DNA of 64,000 bases from positions 1,020,852 through 1,084,851 of the forward strand of contig NW_006767442.1 of NCBI RefSeq assembly GCF_000264995.1, given 5' to 3'. Below, piece after piece: positions 4,234-10,847 of the stretch; positions within the stretch are counted from its first letter, which is position 1, and each line of letters starts with the position of its first letter. The notes under the pieces are model-generated. The model did no database searches and had not been told where the DNA came from. It saw nothing but the letters and a program-made list of their open reading frames with translations. This DNA comes from Punctularia strigosozonata HHB-11173 SS5. Its lineage: Eukaryota > Basidiomycota > Agaricomycetes > Corticiales > Punctulariaceae. Both the position numbers and the translations under genes were made by a program.

Positions 4234-5010
4234 ATGCCCGCACAACCTCCCCGATCACCGCTATCTGAAACATGCCTGGCTGAGCAGCTATCGCTCTATG
4301 ACATGCTCAACGCCATCTACTGCCTTCCCGGCGAACTCTTCCAGAGCGACGAGGACCTGGCGGCAGTCGAGCGTCTCCGAGGCTATCTCGAGTCAACCGG
4401 AAACGATGCGGACGGGCCTAGGGACACGTCTGGGCTCGACCTGCCTCAGAGCGCCGCGCTCGTGCTGCACATCGCGCCGCCGGACGTCACGGTTGGGCCC
4501 GAGGAGCGATGCTTGGAGCTATCGATAGAGATTCCCTTGACCCGGGCAGCAGGCGGCGAAAAGGACTGCGACCGCCCTCCTTTCCCCGAACTCCGCCTGC
4601 GCCATCCGCACTGGCTGAACAGAACCGCGTTCGCGCATCTCCTCGACGCATGCGCCAACGCGCTTTCCACCCCACATGACGGGCAAGACACGAGCGCGCT
4701 CGACCACATCGGGCAAGCGGTGGACCACATCCAGCAACTGCTTCCCTCGTATGCCAGCCCGGTGGATCAACACGTGGTGGACGACGTCGAGCGCGCGCCG
4801 CCCTCTGCGATGATCTCGGACTACCCCCGCGTCCTCCGCGTATGGTACTGGCTCCCCTCTCTCTCCACCAAATCCAAGCGCGCCGACCTCGTCTCCTACG
4901 CGTCCCAGCCTGCCAAAGACGCCCGCCGCCCACCGCTCACCGGCTTCGTCCTCGCCGGCAAACCCGGCATCGTCTGCCTCGAATCGTCCCTCATCCCCTC
5001 CTCCTCCTCC

Positions 5011-5056
<46 letters not shown>

Positions 5057-6000
5057 NNNNNNNNNNNNNNNNNNNNNNNNNNNNNNNNNNNNNNNNNNNN
5101 NNNNNNNNNNNNNNNNNNNNNNNNNNNNNNNNNNNNNNNNNNNNNNNNNNNNNNNNNNNNNNNNNNNNNNNNNNNNNNNNNNNNNNNNNNNNNNNNNNNN
5201 NNNNNNNNNNNNNNNNNNNNNNNNNNNNNNNNNNNNNNNNNNNNNNNNNNNNNNNNNNNNNNNNNNNNNNNNNNNNNNNNNNNNNNNNNNNNNNNNNNNN
5301 NNNNNNNNNNNNNNNNNNNNNNNNNNNNNNNNNNNNNNNNNNNNNNNNNNNNNNNNNNNNNNNNNNNNNNNNNNNNNNNNNNNNNNNNNNNNNNNNNNNN
5401 NNNNNNNNNNNNNNNNNNNNNNNNNNNNNNNNNNNNNNNNNNNNNNNNNNNNNNNNNNNNNNNNNNNNNNNNNNNNNNNNNNNNNNNNNNNNNNNNNNNN
5501 NNNNNNNNNNNNNNNNNNNNNNNNNNNNNNNNNNNNNNNNNNNNNNNNNNNNNNNNNNNNNNNCCCTCCCCCCCCCCTCCTCCTCCTCCTCCTCCTCCTC
5601 CTCCTCCTCCCAGCCAGCACCAGACGCACTCGCAGCCGCCTCCGCCCAAATCGACGCCTACTGGAAGCGCATCAAGACCGAATCGTGGTCCGACATCCCA
5701 CCAGGACACAAGAAAGTCTCCGAGCGTCTCCGCGAGCCTCGCGCGCTCCGCGCCTTCGGCAACGCCTCGCCCTCGGACGCTCCCGGGATCATCGGCACCA
5801 AGGGCATGGTCGAGGTTACGGGCATGCTGCGCGCCGAGTCCGCGCACGGCATGCGCGGGCACAGGGCCAACCGCGGCGACTTGGCGGTGTTGATGCGATG
5901 GATGGACGGCCCGGACGGCGCGGGTGGTGTTACCCCGCGCGGGCTGGGCGCGAAACTGGGCGAGGTGCTCGGCGCGGAGTGGAACGCCGCAGAAGACTGA
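4234..6000 (+). CDS. RWD domain / DUF1115 protein (RWDD2-like), interrupted by an assembly gap
   Basis: Begins at ATG 4234 and ends at TGA 5998-6000. Residues 10-140 form an RWD domain: CLAEQLSLYDMLNAIYCLPG, then SIEIPLT and a proline-containing FPELRLRHPHW turn, followed by the closing helices. The region after about residue 190 is DUF1115-like: YPRVLRVWYWLP, GFVLAGKPGIVCLE, and after the gap IDAYWKRIKTESWSDIPPGHKK. This order (RWD then DUF1115) is that of RWDD2A/B proteins, a conserved eukaryotic family without a firmly known function. Bases 5057-5563 are unknown (N), flanked by poly-C and TCC repeats that translate as proline and serine; the real linker length is unknown. The gap is written as 507 bases, a multiple of three, so the frame is kept, which may be luck. 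Single coding exon as far as visible. Confidence 0.85.
4994..5610. repeat. Poly-C / TCC low-complexity tract containing a 507-base N gap
   Basis: A TCC repeat turns into an unbroken C run from 5012 to 5056, then N from 5057 to 5563, then C-rich sequence and another TCC repeat to about 5610. The tract lies inside the RWD/DUF1115 reading frame. The C run was probably extended by sequencing or assembly error next to the gap; the true sequence is likely a shorter Ser/Pro-coding repeat. Confidence 0.9.
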
Positions 6001-7472: not shown

Positions 7473-10400
7473 CTAATCCCAATTTATCTTGGCCGCGTAT
7501 TCTCGGATCCGGCTGACAAAGTTATCCTTGATCTCGCTGCCAGCTCCGGTAGCCACTTTGAGGATGATCTCATTGAGCCTGGTCGATCCGAGGATATCTA
7601 TGAAAGATGTACGTTATGTTTCGTACTCGGAGCGGGCCCTCGAAGAACGAGTGCTTACCGACGTGGTCACTCGTGTTGGCGCCGCCGCGCGGTATCGTTG
7701 GCGTCGGATGATGCGGGAGCTGCAGTCCGGGATCAGACACATTCACAATGAGGGTCCGGCCCCGACGAACCTCGACGGTGACGACATCGATCCCAGCTGG
7801 GTTCCACCGCTTTCGTTTCCAACCTTCGACGCACATCGCGCCCAAACTCAGCAAGCTGACGGTGCCGTCGCCTTCTCCCATCTTGACCCCGTTGATGACC
7901 TGGGCGGATGAAGGAACCGTAAAGAAGGGCTTCATCACGGGCAAGTCACGGCGTGCGGTACCTTCGGATTCGCGGTCTCATCCGTGTATTCGGAGTCTAT
8001 CCAGGTCGATCGATAGAGCGGCATGTCCAGTGGCGGACGGAGGCTCTCGCAATGTTCCATCGTCTCGTTCGCACATACCGCTCCAGCGGCATCCGCAATG
8101 GTCTCATCATACTCGTATTCGCCTCGTGCGTACCTATTCGCCTCGCGCAGGTACAAAATGAGCTACCCGGTCAAACCGCAAAACCAGAAACTGTCTCACC
8201 AGTACGAACGCTCGGTCTCCTTCCCGTGGCCGTAGACGCAGTACATTTTCATGGAGGGTGCATGAGGCAACCTGGATACATGAATCCATTCAGCCGAGTT
8301 GATTAGAAAACACGTTCTGGACTTACTGAACCTCGAGCGGATTGCTCCACTTGGACGGATCAGCATTGTTGCGTATCAGTTGACGCTCATCCTTCTCAAA
8401 CCCGTTTGAGTAGTTCGTCTCCATCATCCGCTGTTAGTATAAGCCATCATCAATATCGTATGAACCGAGCGTGTAGTTCCAAATATTACCTGGAAGGAAT
8501 TGGGCGTATGCGTCAATATCCACGTCCCTCCTTCCCGCGACGTCATGTTCGTGAGCTGCGCCTCGTGCTTCGTCAAGTCCTCGATAGTTTCGTTTGTTAC
8601 GCCTTTGAGCCTCAATGCGTCGAAGGCCGTGGCAAGCGTGCGCTCTGCGCGGAACGAGATAAGTTCACCATGGCTGTGGCCTGCATCCGGTGGGTCGTCG
8701 GGAGCCCAGGTTCCGTTGCCCCAGATGAGGTCGCCTCCCTACAGTAATGAGATATCAGCGCGACGATTCTGGATTTGAGGGAGACAGCGTTGCCTTGATC
8801 CACATGCTGGCACTGCCGGCCCAGCTGCGGAATAACCGTTGACGTTCCTTTCTGGAGAAAAAGCGTTCGAGGACTACCCATCTTTCTCAGAGCACATCCG
8901 TTAGTGATTTGTTCTATGTGACTCACCGTATGCGCCATAGGGATTGATCTGTACCGTATCCTTCATTTCTCCTGAGAGGAACGCTGCCATAGCTTTCGGC
9001 TATGCCGATATTTAGGAGAGTGTGACCTTGAGTACAATACAGGATGAGAATAGCAGGGGCCACTCACGACACCCTAGATGTGACAGGCTTGAGCATGATG
9101 CAAACAGTGGATAATAGGAAAGACACACCAAGTGCGTGCCACCTATCGTGATCAGGGCCTCGATGTTATTCTGATGTCCGAGTGAGCTTCGTCAGAATGA
9201 CGTTTTGGGTGCAGGGACTCAAATCCGACCGACCTCAACCCATTGAGGTCCTCCATTGCCGTGGTCCGGACTTTCGACCCATTTCATGCTGGTCGCCATA
9301 ACTCATCAGCTGGCGTCGAGGAGGGGCAAGTCGTGCTCACAAATACTGCATGTGCATTCAGCTGCCCGATCAGCTCCGTCAATGCGGATGCATGCAGGGT
9401 AAAAGGCGTTCGTACCAGTACAACCTATGGGGCAGAATGTCAATTTAGGTCACAGGACAAGGGCTGTGTTCTAAGACTTACCGTGCTGCCCATTGAGTGT
9501 GCGGCAATGACAACCTTTTTCCTTTCCTTCTTTCTGCATTGGCATGAGGAGTTAGTATGTTCGCACCAGCCGGACGCATATGAGGATACTGTACTCACAC
9601 AAATCCTTCGATGTTCGCCTTCAGCTTGCTGAAATATCCATCTCTCACTTCCAAGTTACCGTACGATAGCCTCCAGTCATAGGGTGCCAGATAAAGATTA
9701 TTGGTGTCGTAGTTCACTACCGCAAGGTTTTCGATGATTTTAGACCTGACAACGATGGAAAGTGATGTAAGTAACAACCCGCATGGACAGGCACGTAGTG
9801 AGGAAGGGGCAGGATGACTGACCATATCCAGTATCCCTGGATGAAACTGCTGGCGGCGCTAATTCCTTCCGCAGAGCGAACTTTGACTTTGGGAGGGTCG
9901 AGCCCGGTATACGGGTCAAGCAAGAGCGTAGACATCCACTGCAAGAAACCACCGATAAGTCGTGCTGCGTTCGGTTGATGTGACCAACGAACCCTGTCTT
10001 TGTCGAACATCACTTGCTGTATCATGGGGAACCCGCCCCAAACCTACGACACTGTGAGCAGTGGCGAACGCGGAGTAGAAGACAAAGTTACCTTGACGCG
10101 GAACAAGTCACGATACTCAGACTCGGTAGACCACGATTCCAGACCCTATTCGTGGTAAGTGAGCGAGGGATAGAAGAGTATGACGGCGCTAGGACGTACC
10201 GTAGAGATAACGCCTGGCACCAGAACCACCGGGTATTGTGCCGTAAGTCCCTGCGCCTTGATCTGTTCGCCGACCTGGAATTCACGTCCATCCGTGTTGA
10301 GCTTCCATACTTCGGGTATGCTGCTCCGGAATCGTTGCCACTCCGTCTCCACTCGCGAGAAGTCCATGCTGTATTTGAAGGGCAGATGTTCCAGAGAGAT

Positions 10401-10847
10401 GTTGGGCATGTTGAACAGGTCTTGGTATTCGGATAGCAGGATGGAGAGATGTGCCGGAAGTTCGGGTAGGTCTCCAGGTTGGACGAGGGCGAATCCGAGG
10501 AGAACACCAACTGTGAGGTAAATTCGGTCAGCAATCTTTCAGCCGAAAGACGATGGGACACCGACATAGAATGCCAAGGGGAAATATGAATTTTCGAGTG
10601 AGGTACCATGGGTTTTCTTGCTACATGATGGGCCTTGAGTTGGCTATCCAGAGGCATAACCAGAATAGCTCACTTTCGGTTTCTTGTGCGTTTCCTTCGC
10701 GTCCTGTACGTTCTGCGCGAGCTCGTCGCGTAGACCGTTCACACTGTCCACACCCGAGGTGGCATCCTTGCCTTGTGCATCATTTATGGCATGTTCGTCC
10801 TGCGTATCGACAGCGATTTTGTGCGCTCTACGGCGCCTTGGAGACAT
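7473..10847 (-). CDS. LRO1: Phospholipid:diacylglycerol acyltransferase (PDAT, Lro1-like)
   Basis: Transfers an acyl chain from a phospholipid to diacylglycerol, making triacylglycerol at the ER. The spliced protein starts MSPRRRRAHKIAVD (ATG at complement 10845-10847), has a basic N-terminus and one membrane anchor (FIFPLGILFGVLLGFALV), then PVVLVPGVISTGLESW, DPYTGLDPPKVKVRSAEG, LYLAPYDWRLSYGNLEVRDG, the lipase nucleophile motif VVIAAHSMGST, MKWVE...NGGPQWVE, GTHLGVPKAMAAFLSGEMKD, GDLIWGNGTWAPDD, the acid motif GDGTVSLLSLG and the histidine motif DHVDILGSTRLNE, so the Ser-Asp-His triad is complete. It ends KINWD at complement 7473. About 20 introns are needed. Three exons are tiny: 9416-9424 (VVL), 9341-9345 (TATTT) and 9068-9073 (GV). 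The intron at 8739-8793 has a GC donor. Family assignment is firm; the smallest exons are inferred from conservation of VVLYFMKWVE and HLGVPKA. Confidence 0.93.

Follow-up and report, generated by a model that had tools for sequence, protein, structure and literature searches.

Three probable coding micro-exons of 5 to 9 nucleotides in a PDAT-type acyltransferase gene of Punctularia strigosozonata

A PDAT-type gene split into 22 exons

The window analysed is a 64,000-nucleotide stretch (contig NW_006767442.1, forward-strand positions 1,020,852 to 1,084,851) from Punctularia strigosozonata HHB-11173 SS5, a wood-decay fungus of the order Corticiales. Its minus strand carries a PDAT-type gene (10847–7473, start to stop codon) whose 22 exons, with 2142 coding nt including the stop codon, splice into a single open frame of 713 amino acids. 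The protein matches the Pfam LCAT family (PF02450) over residues 195–677 and profile positions 2–391 of 392, scoring 272.9 bits against a cut-off of 21, which bears out the acyltransferase identity given to the gene in an earlier note on this DNA. The top protein match, at 99% identity, is the acyltransferase deposited for the same strain. The gene product is, as judged by homology, a PDAT/LCAT-family acyltransferase; the PDAT label is the name carried by many orthologues among the best 120 of 1584 matches, and the activity remains putative. The HSMG motif of the protein aligns with HSLG of the solved LCAT structure 5txf and is invariant in 30 orthologues, which were chosen as intact nearby. 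An AlphaFold model of one orthologue (P0002) places the nucleophile serine of this motif within a strand-turn-helix. A search of the 33.6-Mb, 32-contig assembly of the strain with PF02450, which scored three candidates exon by exon and could miss a paralogue in short exons, returned one match, an exon of the PDAT-type gene, and no paralogue. Elsewhere in the window, a run of unknown bases (approximately 5000–5600) is flanked by a proline/serine-rich open frame and marks an assembly gap or a masked stretch.

The 21 introns of the gene are all 48–77 nt long, and 20 are GT-AG. The exception is intron 15 (8739–8793, minus strand; GCAACG...TAG), a GC-AG intron at which the deposited Punctularia model inserts the residues ATLI. 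A Stereum model (P0085) has the insertion KAIPPEQGGD at the same place, and seven of the 103 models not classed as transcript-like below (from the best 120 of 1584 matches) have an indel there; the GC donor may thus be common to other species. We also noted an unusual donor, GTCGGT, in two introns (10565 and 9233, minus strand), the first of them after the exon at 10620–10566.

Three micro-exons lie in the middle of the gene, all on the minus strand. Exon 8 (52 nt, 9482–9533) ends with HSMGST, the nucleophile serine motif, and is followed by intron 8 (57 nt, 9425–9481; GTAAGT...TAG) and micro-exon 9 (9 nt, 9416–9424; GTTGTACTG, phase 0/0), which encodes VVL. Intron 9 (70 nt, 9346–9415; GTACGA...CAG) leads to micro-exon 10 (5 nt, 9341–9345; TATTT), which supplies Y and two bases of F, and intron 10 (52 nt, 9289–9340; GTGAGC...CAG) leads to exon 11 (55 nt, 9234–9288; (F)MKWVESPDHGNGGPQWVE). 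Downstream, exon 12 (42 nt, 9129–9170; NNIEALITIGGTHL) and intron 12 (55 nt, 9074–9128; GTGTGT...TAG) precede micro-exon 13 (6 nt, 9068–9073; GGTGTC, phase 0/0), which encodes GV and is separated by intron 13 (68 nt, 9000–9067; GTGAGT...TAG) from exon 14 (73 nt, 8927–8999; PKAMAAFLSGEMKDTVQINPYGAY). The earlier note had predicted these exons, and we found each at its position with the predicted letters, with AG directly upstream and GT directly downstream. All three are internal exons of at most 15 nt with canonical splice sites on both sides, the definition of a coding microexon. The protein rebuilt with them reads HSMGST-VVL-YF-MKWVE and GGTHL-GV-PKAM in the one open 713-residue frame, again as predicted. 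If the micro-exons were left out, the interval from exon 8 to exon 11 would form one intron of 193 nt, and that from exon 12 to exon 14 one of 129 nt. By an ad hoc score, the donors and branch-point-like motifs of the five flanking introns are similar to those of the other 16, except in intron 12, where the branch-point-like motif is just weak, the weakest of the five.

Reading frame and chance

We listed the GT-AG splicing paths across both intervals, keeping the outer exon ends fixed and allowing no more than three internal exons per interval. When introns must reach 40 nt and internal exons may not exceed 60 nt, 18 paths cross from exon 8 to exon 11 and three of them are open in frame. TATTT is part of all three open paths, and VVLYF arises from the path with the 9- and 5-nt exons alone. 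Extending the internal exons to 80 nt and varying the intron minimum between 20 and 50 nt recovered the same three paths. Allowing GC donors raises the number of open paths to 46, and allowing GC and AT donors raises it to 81, many of them without TATTT. The frame argument for the 5-nt exon therefore holds for GT-AG splicing only, and the gene itself has a GC-AG intron. Hence, the claim that VVLYFMKWVE can be rebuilt only from the 9- and 5-nt exons stands under GT-AG rules, but the frame does not force it once GC donors are admitted.

Across the second interval (exon 12 to exon 14) we counted 13 paths, of which six are open, including plain skipping, and one yields GV alone. The 6-nt exon, proposed as required for HLGVPKA, can therefore be skipped with the frame still open. 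Since the 9-nt exon is likewise skippable in frame and unnecessary for it, the case for both of these exons depends on conservation.

To gauge chance, the intervals were shuffled 20,000 times with dinucleotides kept and the exon ends fixed. The pattern [VILM][VILM]LYF arose in none of the shuffles and a looser pattern in nine, and GV was obtained in two.

Conservation of the micro-exon peptides

The orthologue set comprised the best 120 of 1584 homology matches, all of which were used. We classed 17 of them as transcript-like; these lack an NCBI entry, and their sole source label is 'lgn' (16) or 'jgi' (1). In 15 of the 17 the longest contig is at most 4.2 kb and the frame fills 51–96% of it; the other two, on contigs of 11–14 kb, are less certain. 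Short contigs mostly filled by the frame of a gene with about 20 introns were read as spliced cDNA. Both the V/I-x-L/P-YF segment and GV are present in 17/17 transcript-like orthologues, several of which are identical in local sequence and do not amount to 17 independent species. At the peptide level, the comparison with PDAT orthologues thus agrees with the view that the micro-exons restore conserved segments. Among the remaining 103 models, the VVLYF site is intact in 42, the GV site in 75 and both in 40. The difference in intact pairs, 17/17 versus 40/103, gives a Fisher p of 7e-7, a descriptive value as the sequences are related.

One or both sites are faulty in 63 of the 103 models and in none of the transcript-like sequences. 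Failures at the VVLYF site (61 models) take several shapes. In nine models, the loss is confined to the three residues encoded by the 9-nt exon; nine others lack four residues, the Punctularia model among them. Seven run on past V-x-L as if through the donor, five clearly and two (P0008 and P0034) ambiguously. Another 25 have other replacements after V, and 11 fail otherwise, some of them (such as P0099 and P0119) also without the HSMG part. Of the 28 failures at the GV site, 22 lack exactly GV and six differ in other ways. Exact losses of two or three residues at one place in different species are the footprint expected of missed 6-nt and 9-nt exons.

The errors concentrate at the micro-exon junctions. 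Indels within three residues of junctions 8, 9 and 10 were found in 44, 53 and 45 of the 103 models, respectively, and at junctions 12 and 13 in 25 models each. Leaving junction 1 aside, the other 15 junctions have indels in 0–7 models, and the per-residue mean away from junctions is 7.1 of 103 (1.2 of 17 for the transcript-like set). Junction 1, in the variable N-terminus, has indels in 46 of the 103 models and in 12 of the 17 transcript-like sequences, which show none at any other junction.

These failures recur in several Agaricomycete orders. Six of the 22 models with exact GV loss were assigned to orders: Dentipellis and Amylostereum (Russulales), Coniophora (Boletales), Ganoderma (Polyporales), and Gymnopilus and Desarmillaria (Agaricales). 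The four-residue loss at the VVLYF site is also found in Rickenella (Hymenochaetales). Read-through past V-x-L in Suillus (Boletales), Agrocybe and Hypsizygus (Agaricales) suggests a donor directly after the V-x-L codons in these genera too. Intron positions in other species are read here from the shape of model errors, and intact models are uninformative on introns. The nine models without exactly VVL retain [YH]F; their species may thus have the 5-nt sequence fused with the following exon. Taken from these protein models, the pattern indicates that the micro-exons are probably common to several Agaricomycete orders and often mis-annotated. Related-locus searches of genome contigs and viral contigs found no relative's locus.

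The micro-exon 9 and 10 peptide also has a structural place. The AlphaFold model of P0002 is poor overall (mean pLDDT 48.6), and residues 291–350 alone were used. This block (pLDDT 71–92) has a strand at 307–312, Ser313 and a helix at 314–327, and VVLYF corresponds to residues 318–322 inside the helix. GV, at residues 355–356, lies outside the block, and we make no structural claim for it. Skipping would probably disrupt the active site, an effect that would favour constitutive inclusion.

Errors in the deposited models

The deposited Punctularia model (603 residues) starts 110 residues late and reads HSMGSTV-MKWVE, without VLYF, yet it includes the GV of the 6-nt exon. The missing N-terminal residues correspond to exons 1 and 2 and the start of exon 3 (10510–10847, minus strand) and contain a hydrophobic segment, FIFPLGILFGVLLGFALV. 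We found no canonical path to STV-MKW with GT, GC or AT donors, introns of at least 20 nt and up to two internal exons. The junction could have arisen from a transcript alignment that ran the initial GT of micro-exon 9 onto the initial GT of intron 8 and left out the 12 nt remaining of micro-exons 9 and 10. If so, the deposited model would be an indirect sign of an mRNA with the micro-exons.

The expectation that gene finders miss such exons accordingly fits the 63 faulty models but not the 6-nt exon of the deposited Punctularia model. In practice, 61 of the 103 non-transcript-like models (from the best 120 of 1584 matches) give a faulty sequence for this core lipid enzyme beside its catalytic serine. 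A mushroom PDAT cloned or modelled from databases may thus start from a defective sequence. Conversely, losses of two or three residues at one junction that are absent from transcript-like sequences offer a cheap route to fungal micro-exons without RNA data.

Origin and inclusion of the micro-exons

We consider it very probable that this intron-dense PDAT gene has three genuine coding micro-exons, which are constitutively included and bounded by short, intron-defined introns. Fungal splicing is described as proceeding mainly by intron definition (PMC2397502). Short introns such as those of 52–70 nt here would be recognised singly by the spliceosome, across the intron, and exon length would then set no limit on splicing as long as each intron carries its own signals. 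The micro-exons would owe their origin to the tight spacing of introns along the coding sequence. Micro-exons 9 and 10 would supply VVLYF to finish the helix that follows the nucleophile serine, and micro-exon 13 would contribute the conserved GV.

Intron density goes far towards accounting for the cluster. If the 21 introns are scattered randomly over the 2142 coding nt, a mean of 1.7 internal exons no longer than 9 nt results, and three or more arise with a probability of 0.23. On these figures, the cluster is largely a by-product of intron density. Two adjacent tiny exons occur in 11% of random placements, and three within 120 coding nt with a probability of 0.022. The earlier note had called three such exons in 360 bp striking; they are so only to a mild degree, and their number is near the random expectation.

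The micro-exons could also be real but alternatively included, the cluster serving to switch storage-lipid synthesis through splicing. Omission of the 5-nt exon (a frame shift) or in-frame omission of the 9- or 6-nt exon would then give an inactive or altered enzyme. In-frame skipping of the latter two is formally possible, and a regulated fungal microexon has been described in Trichoderma Xlr2 (PMC11121469). However, both segments are present in every one of the 17 transcript-like orthologues, the exact losses sit in models with NCBI entries, as expected of missed exons, and cassette exons are described as rare in fungi and protists, with an average fraction of 3% (PMC2397502). We regard a switch of this kind as improbable. 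An equally speculative proposal is that the Agaricomycetes have retained the 9- and 5-nt pair, together with the 6-nt exon, since ancient times because joint splicing of these exons controls PDAT output. If true, failure of the 5-nt exon would break the frame after the catalytic serine and couple spliceosome performance to storage-lipid synthesis. Least credible of all is a chance match of one or both in-frame micro-exons in a species that splices HSMGST-YF-MKW or GGTHL-PKAM: both frames are open, and exactly VVL or exactly GV is absent in 9 and 22 of the 103 models, respectively, but the rarity of the peptides in the shuffles, their presence throughout the transcript-like set, the GV of the deposited model and the position of VVL in the helix after the nucleophile in P0002 all argue against it.

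Comparison with known tiny exons

Constitutive inclusion of the three exons would add to a known kind, since published examples from fungi go down to 6 bp and even to 1 nt. Our literature search, with most subscription journals outside its scope, found no paper on micro-exons in PDAT. Some candidates proved irrelevant: 'microexon' is a mapping option in PMC3990503, an Agaricomycetes microexon match, and in PMC8022950, and PMC13149111 contained nothing relevant.

The closest likeness is to the P450 genes of Phanerochaete chrysosporium, also a white-rot basidiomycete, whose exons are described as coding for 2–10 amino acids, the shortest being 6 bp, between small introns of 45–55 bp (PMC1184071). 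Exons under 10 nt are on this account less exceptional than the earlier note had held. The tiny exons of P. chrysosporium are spread over the P450 gene set, whereas here three exons below 10 nt, one of them of 5 nt, fall within about 120 coding nt of a lipid enzyme gene.

Fusarium CYP621A has a 1-nt exon confirmed by SRA reads (PMC12940212). It resembles the PDAT case as an ultra-short, frame-keeping coding exon in a conserved motif that was first argued from orthologues. It differs in its ascomycete host, its length and its read support, the 5- to 9-nt exons here being known from sequence comparison. The Trichoderma virens Xlr2 microexon was likewise missing from the existing gene annotation, but its alternative inclusion alters a transcription factor (PMC11121469), whereas inclusion in PDAT looks constitutive.

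Plants offer the broadest comparison. The MEPDB resource reports 2398 exons of 1–15 nt in ten species, many of them unannotated (PMC12409088). These are, like the PDAT exons, coding and in conserved clusters; unlike them, they were found genome-wide from RNA-seq, and the MEPDB text mentions neither 'fungi' nor 'acyltransferase'. Set beside these systems, the three PDAT exons offer a clean case in which to test how a fungal spliceosome copes with exons of 5 to 9 nt.
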